Origin: Phyllobacterium sp. OV277
GTDB lineage: Bacteria > Pseudomonadota > Alphaproteobacteria > Rhizobiales > Rhizobiaceae
Reading direction: 5' to 3'
DNA length: 64,000 nt
Assembly: GCF_900104355.1 (NCBI RefSeq)
Contig: NZ_FNIY01000005.1
Span: 248,001 to 312,000 of the forward strand
Shown: positions 20,839 to 27,671 of the stretch, one piece after another
How positions within the stretch are numbered: the stretch's first letter is position 1
Layout of the letters: each line of letters begins with the position of its first letter
The notes under the pieces: generated by a model
The model's input: only the letters and a program-made list of their open reading frames with translations
The model's database searches: none
Told to the model about the DNA's origin: nothing
Made by a program: the position numbers and the translations under genes

Positions 20839-20858
20839 GCCCTGAAGAGGCCACAACG

Positions 20859-21431
20859 ATGTCAACCCCATCCATCAGCCGTTTCCCGACACCCTCCATT
20901 ACTGAACTGCCGCAGGACATCGCCGACCGGATACTCGCCGTACGGGAGAAGTCCGGTTTCGTACCGAATGTCTTTTTGGTGCTCGCACATCGTCCGGACG
21001 AGTTTCGCGCCTTTTTCGCCTATCATGATGCCCTTATGGACAAGCCCGGCGGCCTGACAAAGGCCGAAAGGGAAATGATCGTGGTGGCGACGAGCGCCGC
21101 CAACCAGTGCCAATACTGCGTCATTGCCCATGGCGCGATCCTGCGTATCCGCGCCAAGAACCCGCTGATCGCCGACCAGATCGCAACCAACTACCGCAAA
21201 GCCGATATTACGCCCAAGCAAAGAGGGATGTTGGATTTTGCCATGAAGGTCTCTGTGGAAGCCTACAAGGTCGAGAGCGCCGATTACGAGCAGTTGAAAG
21301 CACACGGGTTTTCTCAGGACGATATGTGGGACATTGCGGCAATCTCCGCTTTCTTTGCCCTGTCGAATCGCCTCGCCAATGCAACAGACATGCGCCCCAA
21401 CGATGAGTTTTATGTGATGGGTCGGGGATAG
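20859..21431 (+). CDS. Peroxidase-related protein, AhpD/CMD-like fold
   Basis: 190 residues from ATG 20859, which has AGAGG about 10 bases upstream; the frame stays open further back only because it runs through the end of the lipoprotein gene. The AhpD-type redox motif is CQYCVIAHG (CxxC followed by His). This matches the group called uncharacterised peroxidase-related enzymes, thought to reduce peroxides or act as carboxymuconolactone decarboxylase-like proteins. No specific substrate can be assigned. Confidence 0.87.
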   Translation: MSTPSISRFPTPSITELPQDIADRILAVREKSGFVPNVFLVLAHRPDEFRAFFAYHDALMDKPGGLTKAEREMIVVATSAANQCQYCVIAHGAILRIRAKNPLIADQIATNYRKADITPKQRGMLDFAMKVSVEAYKVESADYEQLKAHGFSQDDMWDIAAISAFFALSNRLANATDMRPNDEFYVMGRG

Positions 21432-21497
21432 GTGCTTCACGCCCCTGTCATCGTGACGCGCTAGGCCTGAAGCACAATCTTGCCGGAGGATGACATC

Positions 21498-22460
21498 ATG
21501 TCTGCATTGCGAAACACACTTCCCATAGCAATCACCATATTCACGGTGATTGCCGGTTCATCCGCAAACGCTGAAATCATTCAAGCCGGACGTACGATCA
21601 GCGAGCGTCTCAAAACATTCGACAGGAATACCGTCTGGAAGCCGGTTGAGCAGATCACCTTGAACTTCCCGACCTTCCATCCGCAGGGAATGGTAAAAAT
21701 CGGTGACGTCTTCTACATAACCTCCGTCGAAATCACCAAACCCACGACCAAATATGACCAACCGCGCGACGGCTATGACCGTGATACGGGTGAAGGCAAG
21801 GGGCATCTGTTCAAAGCGGATGCCAAGGGCAATCTGCTTGAGGACCTCGCATTGGGTGAAGGATCGATCTATCACCCCGGTGGGATCGACTTTGACGGTA
21901 CTTCGATCTTTGCTCCTGTCGCGGAATACCGTCCGAACAGCGCCGCCATTATCTATAAAGTCGATCCAAAGACCATGAAACCGCAGGAAGTGTTCCGTTA
22001 CAAGGATCACCTCGGCGGGGTTATTCACGACACCGAGAACAAGACGCTCAACGCGGTCAGTTGGGGATCACGGCGCTTCTATGCGTTCACGCTCGACAGC
22101 GCAGGCAATGTCACCAACGCTGATGTGGAGCGGACAAAGCTGGCCAAGCTCAATCCCTCGCACTACATCGATTATCAGGACTGCAAATATCTCGGCGCAA
22201 GCGAAATGCTGTGCGGCGGGCTGACTGCGTACCAGACGAAGAAGGACGGTCCCAAATTTTCGCTGGGCGGGCTTGAGATCGTCAACCTTGCCTCCAATCA
22301 GCCCGTCTATCAGGTACCCGTACAACTCTGGACGGAAGCAGGGCTGCCCATGACCCAGAACCCCTTCTGGATCGAACCCGTAGACAAAGGGCTGAAAGCC
22401 TACTTCATGCCTGAGGATGACAAGTCCACGATCTATATTTATGAAGCACAGAGCAAGTAA
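21498..22460 (+). CDS. Secreted DUF6454-type protein
   Basis: 320 residues from ATG 21498, chosen because CGGAGG lies just upstream. A signal peptide (ALRNTLPIAITIFTVIAGSSANAE) is followed by a predominantly beta-strand sequence with repeated short motifs (FHPQGMVKIGDVFYITSVE, YHPGGIDFDGTSIFAPVAEYRP, HLGGVIHDTENKTLNAVSWGSRRFYAF) suggestive of a beta-propeller. I match it to the DUF6454 group from memory of its sequence pattern. Likely periplasmic; function unknown. Confidence 0.75.
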   Translation: MSALRNTLPIAITIFTVIAGSSANAEIIQAGRTISERLKTFDRNTVWKPVEQITLNFPTFHPQGMVKIGDVFYITSVEITKPTTKYDQPRDGYDRDTGEGKGHLFKADAKGNLLEDLALGEGSIYHPGGIDFDGTSIFAPVAEYRPNSAAIIYKVDPKTMKPQEVFRYKDHLGGVIHDTENKTLNAVSWGSRRFYAFTLDSAGNVTNADVERTKLAKLNPSHYIDYQDCKYLGASEMLCGGLTAYQTKKDGPKFSLGGLEIVNLASNQPVYQVPVQLWTEAGLPMTQNPFWIEPVDKGLKAYFMPEDDKSTIYIYEAQSK

Positions 22461-22918: not shown

Positions 22919-23551
22919 ATGTCCTCTCAAAGAAAGACTGTCTTGCTGGCTGGCGTGTTTGCGCTGCTAGCTTTTACAACCGGTACGGCGATGGCAGCCG
23001 ATTATTACAATCCGGCCCCTGTCTACAACGATCCACCCGCGTTCGATTGGAGCGGTGCCTATATCGGTGCTCATGGCGGTACGGCCTTTACCAAGATGCC
23101 AAACCCCTTTGCCGACAGAAATGGCTGGAGCGGTGGTATCCAGGGCGGCTACAACGTCCAGATGGGACCGGCTGTTCTCGGTGCTGAACTTGAAGGTTCC
23201 TATCTCGGTGGCGCTGAACACAAGGTGCGCGGTGGCAAGATAGAAGAAAAATGGCGCGCTGCGGCAAAGGCCAAGGCCGGTCTGACATTCAATCAGACAC
23301 TCGTTTTTGGTACCGCCGGTGTGGCCCTGACCAAATTCGACGCCGGTGACAGGGTGCGCGACACCAGCAGCTGGAAGACCGGTTACCTCGTGGGCGGCGG
23401 TGTCGAGCAGGCATTCGCCGGCGGCCTCTCAGCCAAGATTGAATACAACTACATCCACACACCCAATGTGAAGGCGACCACGGCTCTTGGCCGCAGCGAA
23501 ACCGACATTGGAAGCCATGAACTCAAGGCCGGTCTCAATTACCGGTTCTAG
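22919..23551 (+). CDS. Omp25/Omp31-family outer-membrane protein
   Basis: Small outer-membrane beta-barrel of about 210 residues, typical of Brucella and relatives. It has a signal peptide (TVLLAGVFALLAFTTGTAMA), mature start DYYNPAPVYNDPPAFDWSGAYIGAHGG, the family's FDWSGxYxGxxGG motif, alternating glycine-rich strands and the C-terminal aromatic ending GLNYRF needed for barrel assembly. ATG 22919 is chosen for spacing from GGAG at 22906; ATGs at 22901 and 22913 are alternatives. Confidence 0.93.
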   Translation: MSSQRKTVLLAGVFALLAFTTGTAMAADYYNPAPVYNDPPAFDWSGAYIGAHGGTAFTKMPNPFADRNGWSGGIQGGYNVQMGPAVLGAELEGSYLGGAEHKVRGGKIEEKWRAAAKAKAGLTFNQTLVFGTAGVALTKFDAGDRVRDTSSWKTGYLVGGGVEQAFAGGLSAKIEYNYIHTPNVKATTALGRSETDIGSHELKAGLNYRF

Positions 23552-23586: not shown

Positions 23587-23665
23587 ATCGTACCCGGACT
23601 ACGCTGCGCGAGAATGTGGATACTAGTCCCGTTCACATGCTTGCGGTGTAGAAGTGCCTATCCGT

Positions 23666-23757
23666 GATGGGCGCTGTTCGGAGAGAAAATGGTTTGCAGC
23701 GCCGGCGGCGATCCCGCCCATCAGTCTCTGCCCGCCCTAAAGACTGTTTTCTCTCCG
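23666..23757. repeat. Two interleaved inverted repeats (pseudoknot-like topology)
   Basis: Pair A: GATGGGCG (23666-23673) with CGCCCATC (23715-23722). Pair B: CGGAGAGAAAA (23679-23689) with TTTTCTCTCCG (23747-23757). The pairs cross, so they would form a pseudoknot or two alternative folds. The surrounding 23590-23950 region has no convincing gene. Confidence 0.5.
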
Positions 23758-23952
23758 TTCGCACTTGGGCTAAGGCCGTGCAGACCGGCTATTTCCCCCA
23801 CGATGTCAGAAAGATTAGACGGAGTGGATCGCTCAGATATCGCATCACATTGATGCTAATTTTTGCTGGAATATTTGTCAGTAAAATTTTCTATTGTTAA
23901 TGTATTTATGTATAAATTTATACTTCGGTATAAGCAACTTTAAATATATATA

Positions 23953-23984
23953 CACCCGGATGCTCTTTAACGAGCATCCGGGTG
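23953..23984 (-). terminator. Strong intrinsic terminator of the exporter/peptide unit
   Basis: Thirteen-base perfect stem CACCCGGATGCTC / GAGCATCCGGGTG, loop of 6 bases. On the minus strand an A/T-rich tail follows. It begins 7 bases after the stop codon of the 26-residue peptide gene, and no other terminator is seen between here and the macB-like gene. Confidence 0.88.
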
Positions 23985-23991
23985 AAATATC

Positions 23992-24072
23992 TTAGATAGG
24001 CAAACTACCGAGTAAACCTGCAATGAGGTTAACGACAGCTTCAAGAAGGTGCTTAAGAAGATCTCCGAACAT
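23992..24072 (-). CDS. 26-residue amphipathic helical peptide
   Basis: Too short for standard gene finding. On the minus strand a near-perfect ribosome site GGGAGG (24081-24086) stands 8 bases before ATG 24072, and the frame ends in TAA at 23992-23994, directly before a strong terminator. The product starts MFGDLLKHLLEAVVN and ends LIAGLLGSLPI. Leu, Val, Ile and Phe repeat every three to four residues while Asp4, Lys7, His8, Glu11 and Asn15 fall on the opposite face, so an amphipathic helix is expected. No signal peptide or Cys. It lies 187 bases downstream of the macB-like gene on the same strand. It could be an exported peptide of phenol-soluble-modulin or bacteriocin type, or a small membrane toxin; family not recognised. 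Confidence 0.7.
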   Translation of the reverse strand: MFGDLLKHLLEAVVNLIAGLLGSLPI

Positions 24073-24259
24073 ATAAATGTCCTCCCGGTTAAGTAAGTCA
24101 GCGCTATCATTATTATCAGACGCGCAATTGTTTACTAATAAATTGTTATCATTCGTCTTTACTATTAAATTTGAACCACTTTGTTTTAACCGTATGTTTT
24201 TGGCTGTATTTGATCACCTTATTTTAGGTAAATATTTAGGTCATCATCACTTTAATTGA

Positions 24260-25459
24260 TTATTCATAGCGCAGGGCATCGATCGGGTTCATCCGTGCGG
24301 CGCGACGCGCCGGGAAATAACCAAAAATTACACCGATCAGAGCGGAGAAGCCAAAAGCAATCAGCACAATGGATGGATCAACCACGAAGGGCACGCTCAT
24401 CAGGCTGACCGCTGTATAGGCGAGCACCAGACCGATGATCATGCCGATCAGACCGCCAATCAGGCACAGGACGATAGCCTCCACCAGAAATTGGGTCAGA
24501 ACCTGCCGTTCCGTCGCACCAATGGCCAGACGTACGCCGATTTCGCGCGTTCGCTCCGTCACCGAAACCAGCATGATGTTCATAATGCCGATACCGCCGA
24601 CAAGCAGGCTGACCGCCGCAATAGAAGAAAGCAGTCCAGTCAGAATAACCGTCGTCATGGAAACAATTCCAAGTATCTGACTGAGATCAGTGACTTCAAA
24701 GTCCCGGTCACCCGTTTCACGGATCTTGCGCCGCTCTTTGAACAGGTCCTCAAGTGCAGCCTTGACCGGGCCCGTCGCGCCATCCTTGGCCGAAACCGTT
24801 ATCAACGACACATCGGTTGAACCGGCAATCCGGCGCTGGAACATGCGGAACGGGATAAGAACCATGTTGTCCTGATCCTGTCCGTCAATGGCTTTGCCCT
24901 TGGAAACCAGCGTGCCTATGACCTCGCAGGAAATGCGGTTGACGCGAATACGGTCCCCATCCGGAATAGTATCTCCGAACAGGACCTTTCGCACCGTTCC
25001 ACCGATAATACAGACGGATCGACCGCTGCGCTCTTCTGATTCCAGAAAGTTGCGTCCAGATGCCAGCTGCCAGTTCATCGTGGTGAAAAAGTCATTGGTT
25101 GAGCCAATAACCGATACAGTCCGGCTATTGCCCTCCCGGATGGCTGTGCCGGACACCTGACCGAAGGGGGCGACGGCCGCAATGCCTGGAATCTGATCGC
25201 GGATCGCGTCAACATCCCGGACATCAAAGGTGCGTGGTGCAAGGGTTGAACGCCGCTCCGGGTTGCCGGGCGACACGAAAAGCAGGTTGGTACCAAGCTT
25301 TGAAATTTCACCCGTGACCCGCTGCCGCGTGCCATTGCCGACGGTGACCATGGCAATTACCGCACCAACGCCAATGACTATGCCCAGCATCGTCAGGAAC
25401 GAACGCATCATATTGCGTGACATGGAATGCAGTGCCAGCCGGAACGCTTCGATCAGCAT
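24260..25459 (-). CDS. MacB-type ABC exporter permease (FtsX-like)
   Basis: Inner-membrane protein of 399 residues with the MacB topology: one N-terminal helix (FLTMLGIVIGVGAVIAMVTVG), a large periplasmic domain of about 220 residues, then three helices (LLSSIAAVSLLVGGIGIMNIMLVS, VEAIVLCLIGGLIGMIIGLVLAY, VLIAFGFSALIGVIFGYF). MacB of E. coli fuses ATPase and permease; here the ATPase is a separate gene two bases upstream. Such exporters move macrolides, peptides or siderophores from the periplasm through a TolC-type channel. No channel gene lies nearby. Confidence 0.93.
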   Translation of the reverse strand: MLIEAFRLALHSMSRNMMRSFLTMLGIVIGVGAVIAMVTVGNGTRQRVTGEISKLGTNLLFVSPGNPERRSTLAPRTFDVRDVDAIRDQIPGIAAVAPFGQVSGTAIREGNSRTVSVIGSTNDFFTTMNWQLASGRNFLESEERSGRSVCIIGGTVRKVLFGDTIPDGDRIRVNRISCEVIGTLVSKGKAIDGQDQDNMVLIPFRMFQRRIAGSTDVSLITVSAKDGATGPVKAALEDLFKERRKIRETGDRDFEVTDLSQILGIVSMTTVILTGLLSSIAAVSLLVGGIGIMNIMLVSVTERTREIGVRLAIGATERQVLTQFLVEAIVLCLIGGLIGMIIGLVLAYTAVSLMSVPFVVDPSIVLIAFGFSALIGVIFGYFPARRAARMNPIDALRYE

Positions 25460-25461
25460 TG

Positions 25462-26181
25462 TTATAAATCCTGTCTGCGTTCATCGCTCTGGATGTGACC
25501 ATCGACAAAGCGGATTATACGCCGGGCATAGGCGGCAATATCGGGTTCATGGGTGACCATGATGACAGTGATGCCATTATTCCTGTTGAAACCGGAGATA
25601 ACGTCCATGATCTCGGCACTGGTTTTCGTATCGAGATTGCCGGTGGGTTCATCGGCGAGCAACACCTGCGGATTGGTGACAATGGCGCGCGCTATGGCCA
25701 CACGCTGCTGCTGGCCACCTGACAGTTCGGAAGGCACATGACTGGCACGGGTTGCCAGACCCACCTGCCGCAGGGCCTCCAAAGCCCGCTCCCGACGCTC
25801 CGCGCGGCCCATGCCACGATAGATCAGCGGCAGTTCGACATTCTCAACCGCAGATGTACGGCGCAGAAGATTAAAGCCCTGAAAGACAAAGCCCAGCAGT
25901 TCCCGCCGCAGCGTTGTCTGTTGATGCCGGTCAAGTTGGTCGATGCCAGTGCCACCAAACAGATATTGCCCCGTGCTTGGCCGATCGAGGCAGCCAATCA
26001 GGTTCATGGCAGTGGACTTACCGGAGCCCGATGGCCCCATGATTGCAACGAAATCCCCCCGCTCAATGGCAAAGTCGACACCCGCCAAAGCGTGAACGGC
26101 CGCCTCACCTTCTCCGTAACTCTTGGTGACTCCACGGAACTCGATCAATGGCACCGGTTTTTGCATGGGCTGCGCGGTCAT
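25462..26181 (-). CDS. ABC exporter ATP-binding protein (MacB/LolD-like)
   Basis: 239-residue ATPase with Walker A GPSGSGKST, signature LSGGQQQRVAIARA, Walker B VLLADEPTGNLD and switch region VTHEPD. Belongs to the MacB/LolD/FtsE class that drives mechanical transmission rather than substrate passage through the membrane. Its start overlaps the MacA-like stop by four bases and its stop is two bases before the permease start, so the three proteins are made together. Confidence 0.94.
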   Translation of the reverse strand: MTAQPMQKPVPLIEFRGVTKSYGEGEAAVHALAGVDFAIERGDFVAIMGPSGSGKSTAMNLIGCLDRPSTGQYLFGGTGIDQLDRHQQTTLRRELLGFVFQGFNLLRRTSAVENVELPLIYRGMGRAERRERALEALRQVGLATRASHVPSELSGGQQQRVAIARAIVTNPQVLLADEPTGNLDTKTSAEIMDVISGFNRNNGITVIMVTHEPDIAAYARRIIRFVDGHIQSDERRQDL

Positions 26182-27437
26182 TTTGGCGGTGTGCTTGCAG
26201 CCACGATCACCTGATCGCCCGCTTTGATCTCACCGGAAAGAACGATTGTGTTGCGCCCGTCTGTCGCGCCGGTGCGCAGTTCAAGCTTCTCTGGCTTGCC
26301 ACCACGCAACACCCAGACATTCCGCTGTGCCCCGGCATCCTTCTTGACTGGATCAGGTATAGCTGGTGTCTGATCAGCAGGATTGGCTGCCTCAACCTTT
26401 ACCGGTTCATTGGGTGGTGTAAACCGCAATGCCGCATTGGGGACAAGCAACGCATCCTTGACTTCCTTGACATTAATGTAAGCCGTGGCGGTCATACCCG
26501 GACGCAAGGCAAGGTCTTCATTGTCAACGGCCAGCATGGCCTTGTAAGTGACAACATTCGAGACTGTTTCGGGTTGAAAACGGATATTGACGATTTTTGC
26601 CGGGAAAGTGCGGTCCGGATAGGCATCCACATTGAAGGTCGCGTCCTGTTCCGGCTTGACGAGACCAACATCAGCCTCATCAACATTCACCTGCAACTCC
26701 ATCCTTTTCAGATTACCGGCGAGCTTGAACAAAACAGGCGCTTGAAAAGCAGCGGCAACCGTCGCACCCGGATCAACCGAACGGCTCAGCACGACACCAT
26801 CAATCGGCGATATGATCTTGGACTTGCGCAAGGAGGTTTCATTGACCTGCAGTTCCGCTTCCGAAACGGCCACCTCGGCATTCGCCACATCAAGCGCGGC
26901 AACGGCTGAGTCATATTCCGACTTGGCAACGTCAAGCTCGCGCACGGATGAAACCCTGCTGTCCTGCAGGGCCGTCATGCGTTCAAACGCATTCTTTTTG
27001 GCCGCGAGAGTTGCCTGTGCCTGCACAACACGGGCACGCGATGCCAGAAGCTTTGATTTCGAGCTCTCGATATTGGTGTTGATCGTGTCAATATCGAGCG
27101 TTGCCAGCACATCGCCCTGGCCGACGAAACTATTGTAATCGACCAGCACCGTGCGAACCGTGCCGGAAAGCTCACTGGACACATCCACCTGTTCGGTGGG
27201 CTGCACAGTTCCCGTTGCCGATACGGTGATGGAAAGCGTACCCTTGGTCAGCGGCTTCTCGGTATAGCTATATTGCGTGCCACGAGAATACCACGACATG
27301 GCTGCCAGAATCGCGACAATGAGAAGCCCGCCGCCCCACAGGAAGGGGTGTCTGCGAAAAACATTCCGCTTGCCCCTGTTGTCGACAATGGAAGCCAGTG
27401 TTTTGCTCAGGTCCGGTTGGTTTGTCGAAGAGTCCAC
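26178..27437 (-). CDS. MacA-like periplasmic adaptor (HlyD family)
   Basis: Membrane-anchored adaptor of 419 residues linking the inner-membrane exporter to an outer-membrane channel. One N-terminal helix (PFLWGGGLLIVAILAAMSWY) is followed by the lipoyl halves (VTGTVQPTEQVDVSSELSGTVRTVLVDYNSFV and ISPIDGVVLSRSVDPGATV) flanking a coiled-coil hairpin of about 100 residues, then beta-barrel and membrane-proximal domains. First gene of the exporter unit. GTG start at 27437 has no strong ribosome site, so the exact N-terminus is uncertain. Confidence 0.93.
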   Translation of the reverse strand: MDSSTNQPDLSKTLASIVDNRGKRNVFRRHPFLWGGGLLIVAILAAMSWYSRGTQYSYTEKPLTKGTLSITVSATGTVQPTEQVDVSSELSGTVRTVLVDYNSFVGQGDVLATLDIDTINTNIESSKSKLLASRARVVQAQATLAAKKNAFERMTALQDSRVSSVRELDVAKSEYDSAVAALDVANAEVAVSEAELQVNETSLRKSKIISPIDGVVLSRSVDPGATVAAAFQAPVLFKLAGNLKRMELQVNVDEADVGLVKPEQDATFNVDAYPDRTFPAKIVNIRFQPETVSNVVTYKAMLAVDNEDLALRPGMTATAYINVKEVKDALLVPNAALRFTPPNEPVKVEAANPADQTPAIPDPVKKDAGAQRNVWVLRGGKPEKLELRTGATDGRNTIVLSGEIKAGDQVIVAASTPPK

Positions 27438-27671
27438 GCTGTTACGCCATTCGCTTTATCGGTTGCATGATGCGCCAAAGCGCTTTGAGTGACATAAGCC
27501 CATAAAAATCAGACTTCAATGCGATAGACCCTTTCGCTACCGACCGCTTAATATAGGCGAACGGGTATAATTCAATCCAGTGCCCGATCATTGCAGGAGG
27601 AGATTGCGTCAGCATTGCAGACGAAATGCCAGTAAAACGGGCGGAAATAAGGATGTGAGCTTCAAAACGAG

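Follow-up and report, generated by a model that had tools for sequence, protein, structure and literature searches.

Positions 248,001 to 312,000 of contig NZ_FNIY01000005.1 from Phyllobacterium sp. OV277, a 64,000-nucleotide stretch referred to here as the window, carry on the minus strand a three-gene operon for a MacAB-type exporter and, behind it, a frame of 26 codons. A first-pass annotation of the window had pointed to this frame as an unlisted gene for an amphipathic peptide. Judged by its sequence and conservation, the 26-codon frame is a real, overlooked gene, and the protein sequence that it encodes is under purifying selection. The features of the locus, numbered from the first letter of the window, are as follows.

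23992 to 24072, minus strand: gene for the 26-residue amphipathic peptide MFGDLLKHLLEAVVNLIAGLLGSLPI, stop codon included (sequence, conservation in five strains, purifying selection)
24081 to 24086, minus strand: Shine-Dalgarno sequence GGGAGG, 8 bases before the peptide ATG (GGAGGA in strains DSM 5892, AN3 and 628)
23953 to 23984, minus strand: 13-pair terminator-like hairpin, beginning 7 bases past the peptide stop
24132 to 24200, minus strand: conserved element, candidate promoter or leader (alignment columns 63 to 131)
24260 to 25459, minus strand: gene for a MacB-like permease (MacB_PCD and FtsX domains) of 399 amino acids, without a fused ATPase domain
25462 to 26181, minus strand: gene for the ATP-binding cassette (ABC) ATPase of the exporter, 239 amino acids, overlapping the adaptor gene by 4 bases
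26178 to 27437, minus strand: gene for a MacA-like periplasmic adaptor of 419 amino acids with the pattern R-x3-L-x6-S
22919 to 23551, plus strand: convergent gene for an outer-membrane beta-barrel protein (OMP_b-brl), sharing the distribution of the pump (the same 5 of 19 genomes)

The frame runs from an ATG at 24072 to a stop codon ending at 23992, and its coordinates, its translation and the 8-base spacing of its ribosome site are as first described. The hairpin was also present where it had been reported, and in each of the five copies of the gene that we found it follows the stop at a distance of 6 to 8 bases. When pairs were counted directly in each copy, paired changes were seen at five stem positions (the second, third, eleventh, twelfth and thirteenth from the base), with the first pair unformed in strain 628 and the thirteenth in AN3; the T-tract behind the hairpin is weak in several copies. 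In strain T1293, an in-frame TAG stands immediately before the ATG, which fixes the start at MFGDL, so that no leader is read. DSM 5892, AN3 and 628 contain a further in-frame ATG, which precedes the start by two codons and is separated from the ribosome site by only a single base. The product is leaderless in that it begins at its initiator methionine, and the ribosome site is conserved. Annotation can overlook genes of this size, and neither of the public plasmids NZ_CP088275.1 and NZ_CP050300.1 has it in its gene table, although these tables are stated to be incomplete.

Copies of the gene occur in five Phyllobacterium strains and encode four different proteins that are 62 to 100% identical to that of the window. 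Four copies were found among 20 genomes of the genus at E < 1e-4, namely, the window's own and those of Phyllobacterium sp. T1293 (genome G008, 100%), P. myrsinacearum AN3 (G009, 65%) and Phyllobacterium sp. 628 (G014, 62%); the fifth, from P. myrsinacearum DSM 5892 (77%), came from a scan of GTDB contigs. Residues M1 F2 G3 D4 L5, E11 A12 V13, L21 G22 and L24 P25 are common to the four different proteins. Relative to the window, 22 of the 78 bases are changed in DSM 5892, 22 in AN3 and 27 in 628, with the frame kept. In neutral simulations started from the window sequence (20,000 runs for each of these three strains), the observed BLOSUM score was reached in 0, 3 and 0 runs, and by the cruder count of changed residues the corresponding numbers were 0, 350 and 35. 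The ratio of nonsynonymous to synonymous substitution rates (dN/dS) was computed over 10 pairs, one of which was saturated; it was 0 to 0.32 in 8 of the 9 computable pairs and 0.60 in the ninth (AN3 versus 628). The third codon position was the most changed in 9 of the 10 pairs, the first and third being tied between AN3 and 628. Conservation of the frame had been put forward as a check on the first-pass annotation, and the frame proved intact in all five strains, with protein similarity above the neutral expectation. A conserved untranslated RNA with an incidental open frame would account for the conservation of the hairpin and of an upstream element described below, yet we regard it as scarcely credible given the excess of third-position changes, the retention of frame and start and the level of protein similarity.

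The peptide sequence is compatible with an amphipathic helix. Over residues 1 to 24, the helical moment is 0.56 to 0.60 in the four different peptides, and in all four the permutation p value (20,000 shuffles each) is about 0.0001 or less, which bears out the hydrophobic and polar faces first noticed in the window's copy. By eye, the hydrophobic face covers about 200 degrees, and the polar strip is made up of D4, K7, position 8 (H, G or T), E11 and position 15 (N, H or S), grading into the small residues A18 and G22. The best 19-residue Kyte-Doolittle mean is 1.60 to 2.06, a borderline value for a transmembrane segment. The hydropathy and moment figures are not decisive on this point, and the peptide could lie either on or in the membrane.

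Relatives were sought in overlapping samples of genomes drawn from the family, the order and the class. Outside Phyllobacterium, none that was convincing appeared in the family draw (394 genomes, profile of 3 rows), the order draw (397 genomes, profile of 4 rows), the class draw (385 genomes) or 72,556 plasmids. As a positive control, the window peptide alone recovered the 62% and 65% copies at E values of 1.2e-5 and 3.9e-6. GTDB contigs held no convincing relative outside Phyllobacterium by one N-terminal pattern, which would miss copies with another N terminus, and viral contigs held none by two patterns. One match in genome G769 of the order draw (E = 5.5e-5) sits inside a 330-codon frame and was set aside, as were six weak matches in the genus (E = 0.76 to 1.78), which belong to frames of 272 to 319 amino acids. 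Weak family-draw matches (E = 0.001 to 1) lie mostly inside long open frames and some in short ones. All four peptides matched 0 Pfam families at E values up to 10, and there were 0 NCBIfam matches; two PDB matches (E = 1.1 and 1.7) are to short pieces of larger unrelated proteins. Among the literature matches listed for MacAB, leaderless bacteriocins and Phyllobacterium, in which subscription journals are largely uncovered, there was no report of the peptide.

Upstream of the peptide gene, 60 to 128 bases before its ATG, lies the 69-base element. Its mean identity among the four different copies is 73%, compared with 40% and 42% in its flanks and 72% in the coding region. In genome G003, which carries the pump, the element is gone together with the peptide, while macB is kept (by eye). 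A promoter or leader of the peptide gene is the simplest inference for this element, and its conservation and its loss with the peptide suggest that the gene probably has its own promoter. The peptide may also be partly read through from macB. The first-pass annotation had suggested that adaptor, ATPase, permease and peptide may share one transcript. The gap between the end of macB (24260) and the peptide gene is 187 bases long, with no minus-strand terminator by consensus scan; the separate conserved upstream element weakens the suggestion. By eye, the element does not resemble the conserved region before macA, and no regulatory motif common to the upstream regions of macA and the peptide gene was seen in the alignments. 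The macA gene itself starts at a GTG just past a short upstream frame (window 27437 to 27615), and a promoter-like TTGAAG-17-TATGTC before it is largely kept in six blocks of these genes (by eye).

Being short, with a hairpin and a conserved upstream element to itself and a small amphipathic product, the peptide gene could also be a stand-alone gene of the type I toxin kind, or a dual-function small RNA gene, whose membrane peptide acts on the producer and to which the pump is merely a neighbor. The stretch, hairpin included, folds better than its shuffles (z = -2.95), which favors such a gene. However, neither strand of 23990 to 24260 has a promoter-like site, and hence there is no candidate antisense RNA, as far as a scan with a single sigma-70 consensus, which may miss alphaproteobacterial promoters, can tell. 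The peptide region has no Rfam match at the gathering threshold, and the peptide has none in Pfam. Moreover, the gene is single copy in the window's genome and is found only in pump-bearing genomes. We therefore consider a self-acting toxin gene improbable.

The pump behind which the peptide gene lies is a member of the MacB superfamily by its permease, which matches MacB_PCD (4.2e-48), FtsX (3.2e-22) and MacB in the PDB (4.2e-66). It does not have the fused N-terminal ATPase of MacB, as the 239-residue ATPase is encoded separately; split forms of this kind are known, for example, YknYZ (PMC8277102; here and below, the cited papers are represented by part of their text). Against the NCBIfam model for fused MacB (cutoff, 966 bits), the ATPase scores 252 and the permease 251 bits, and the adaptor scores 158 bits against a MacA cutoff of 342. 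The ATPase also falls below the cutoffs of the models for the darobactin exporter ATPase (241 of 375 bits) and the lactococcin 972 type (203 of 255 bits). PADLOC profiles matched only the ATPase and permease, in domain matches that we take as similarity common to ABC or AAA proteins at large and disregard. All six adaptors contain R-x3-L-x6-S, which we take to be the TolC-docking motif; the part of PMC8277102 that was covered makes no use of the term "RLS motif". The window's genome encodes three TolC-type (OEP) proteins, all on other contigs, and with this motif and a genomic partner present the adaptor is predicted to be able to dock TolC.

All five copies of the peptide gene follow the same macA-ATPase-macB operon. 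The linkage of peptide and exporter proposed in the first-pass annotation thus holds in every copy, but it is not obligate, as G003 has the pump without the peptide. Among 19 Phyllobacterium genomes, macB orthologues of at least 92% identity occur in five, each with the beta-barrel gene, and four of these five also carry the peptide; G003 retains pump and barrel, and its peptide is gone. Because pump and barrel are in all six blocks known and the peptide is in five of the six, we regard pump and barrel as the core of a block. The block is present or absent as a unit. A flanking gene for CoA-transferase subunit B is found in 18 of the 19 genomes, and 6 of the 7 inspected genomes among the 14 without the pump (G018, G012, G005, G016, G001 and G013) have an empty site, in which the CoA-transferase is followed, at 0.47 to 1.12 kb, by the helix-turn-helix and hydrolase genes that border the window's block. 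This pattern may reflect either movement of the block or several losses. G003 groups with DSM 5892 with 100/100 support in an unrooted tree built from the concatenated pump and barrel genes and with 84/95 support in a macB tree with outgroups. Given this grouping with a peptide-bearing strain, the absence of the peptide from G003 is best read as one loss.

Several other observations concern the block and its surroundings. In G011, a different insert (L105, 1874 to 6342), whose genes look like those for a sugar-type ABC transporter and a dehydrogenase, occupies the same site, which may therefore be an insertion hot spot. Genes for DUF6454 and a peroxidase are part of the blocks of the window (a peroxidase-related enzyme and DUF6454, at 20856 to 22460), T1293, AN3 and 628, and neither gene was found in the DSM 5892 and G003 blocks; DUF6454 occurs elsewhere in G018 and G012. 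The barrel protein scores 52 bits against the NCBIfam CLIBASIA_05150 family, far below its cutoff of 220. Between the peptide hairpin and the barrel gene lies a conserved noncoding element (window 23630 to 23775, minus-strand reading) that is 83 to 98% identical in the other four of the five pump genomes; by eye it has two pairs of complementary arms, which alternate as A B A' B' and would form a pseudoknot if the element is RNA, and it has no Rfam match at the gathering threshold. In 628, CoA-transferase subunit A (L065, 303 to 1047) was matched in two overlapping pieces and is absent from the plasmid gene table, and it may thus be frameshifted.

Two further explanations bear on this linkage. 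One is that the peptide is a signaling or surfactant peptide tied to the pump only by shared inheritance of the block. The conserved flanking order means that the linkage did not arise independently in each strain, and G003 shows that the pump can occur alone. On the other hand, the 4 of 20 genomes with the peptide are all among the 5 of 19 with the pump, and the blocks of DSM 5892 and G003 lack DUF6454 and the peroxidase yet keep pump and barrel, DSM 5892 also keeping the peptide. Inheritance alone thus seems to us quite unlikely. In the second and principal alternative, the peptide would be a small subunit in the membrane that attaches to the MacAB-type pump and adjusts its activity, in the manner of AcrZ with AcrB. 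Its place beside this pump in all five copies would be expected of such a subunit, the 11 residues that are invariant beyond the initiator methionine suggest a fixed contact surface, and the peptide is hydrophobic enough for a membrane, albeit with a borderline hydropathy. The review of MacB, in the part consulted, names AcrZ, and on its account other proteins that affect MacB cannot be excluded (PMC5985334). Nevertheless, the peptide has an upstream element of its own, it was lost in G003 while the pump was kept, and it changes more than the pump does: in the three diverged strains, the peptide is 62 to 77% identical to the window's, versus 91 to 93% for macB, 92 to 93% for the ATPase and 86 to 88% for macA. 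We take a modulator seriously as a competing reading, although we hold it to be less probable than export.

The reading that we prefer, with a probability of about 0.42, is that a leaderless amphipathic peptide enters the inner membrane and is extruded by the pump, which would provide both export and self-protection. MacB-type pumps of Gram-positive bacteria serve enterocin DD14, AS-48 and SDP in this way, and the amphipathicity of all four peptides, the adjacency of the pump in every copy and the greater divergence of the peptide than of the pump proteins favor this reading. The peptide would be translated from its own promoter and would partition, unaided and without a leader, into the inner membrane of the cell that makes it. 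Together with MacA and a TolC-type duct encoded elsewhere, the permease would then take it from the outer leaflet or the periplasm and expel it, pickup being placed there because MacB-type transporters act on the periplasmic side. Phyllobacterium is a soil and root bacterium, and outside the cell the peptide might serve as a surfactant-like or membrane-active agent against neighbors or as a signal. On this view, G003 would have given up the peptide but retained the means of protection. Loss of the peptide with retention of the pump is expected if the pump gives immunity; it is also expected if the pump simply has other substrates.

Several points weigh against export with self-protection. The side-chain net charge is -1 in all four peptides, whereas antimicrobial peptides are usually cationic. 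MacB is considered not to carry substrates through the inner membrane (PMC5985334), and neither an inner-membrane peptide exporter nor an immunity protein was found among the annotated neighbors. In the enterocin DD14 system, DdE and DdF are essential for export and the ABC pump alone is insufficient (PMC9865063). That G003 keeps the pump without the peptide means that the pump may have another use, and the shared flanking gene order means that its linkage to the peptide in five strains does not amount to five independent events. Furthermore, 28 loci with more distant pumps (57 to 61% identical), scanned from 81 matched genomes of other genera, had no comparable peptide behind any pump; four had some amphipathic frame led by a Shine-Dalgarno sequence at threshold, and none of these resembles the peptide. 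No barrel like that of the window lay within 1.5 kb of the 28 pumps. Finally, a pump-modulating small protein fits almost as well as an exported one.

To our knowledge, many MacB-type pumps have no known natural substrate, and the peptide is a concrete candidate substrate (or subunit) for a split MacAB-type pump. If it is exported, a Gram-positive theme, that of a leaderless peptide with a MacB-like pump, would reach a Gram-negative genus and raise the question of how a leaderless peptide crosses two membranes. A more specific proposal, which we offer tentatively and think doubtful, is that the peptide represents a new leaderless, acidic family resembling phenol-soluble modulins, encoded in a portable block together with a dedicated MacAB-type pump and a barrel, as a Gram-negative counterpart of enterocin DD14 or SDP in which strains such as G003 would keep pump-only immunity.

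The staphylococcal phenol-soluble modulins are short, leaderless and amphipathic and have a dedicated ABC exporter. Unlike them, the peptide described here comes from other species with another class of exporter and has no Pfam family match. AcrZ is longer than 26 residues and acts on a resistance-nodulation-division pump. What is shared with AcrZ-type modulators is small size, hydrophobicity and association with a tripartite pump (PMC5985334). Homology to Escherichia coli MacAB-TolC spans most of the length of both adaptor and permease, and export of a periplasmic peptide is described for a MacAB-TolC pump (PMC5985334). In E. coli, the ATPase is fused to the N terminus of MacB, whereas here it is a separate protein and scores are far from the NCBIfam equivalog cutoffs. 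YknWXYZ of Bacillus is likewise a MacAB-like pump with a separate ATPase and protects its maker from the maker's own peptide, SDP (PMC8277102, PMC5985334); AS-48EFGH acts on or protects against AS-48 (PMC5985334). Mature SDP has 42 residues and a disulfide bond, whereas the Phyllobacterium peptide has 26 and no cysteine. In the enterocin DD14 system, the adaptor, ATPase and MacB-like permease DdHIJ aid export of the leaderless peptide, deletion of ddI lowers the amount exported by about 75%, and DdGHIJ gives intermediate resistance (PMC9865063). Counterparts of DdE, DdF and DdG were not present among the annotated neighbors here, for which no profile search was made. The hosts of the enterocin DD14 and AS-48 clusters are Gram-positive (Enterococcus), and the present peptide differs in having 26 residues and being acidic. 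As in those clusters, of which the first makes a leaderless and the second a circular product, the Phyllobacterium locus combines a peptide with a separate adaptor, ATPase and MacB-like permease (PMC9865063, PMC5985334).

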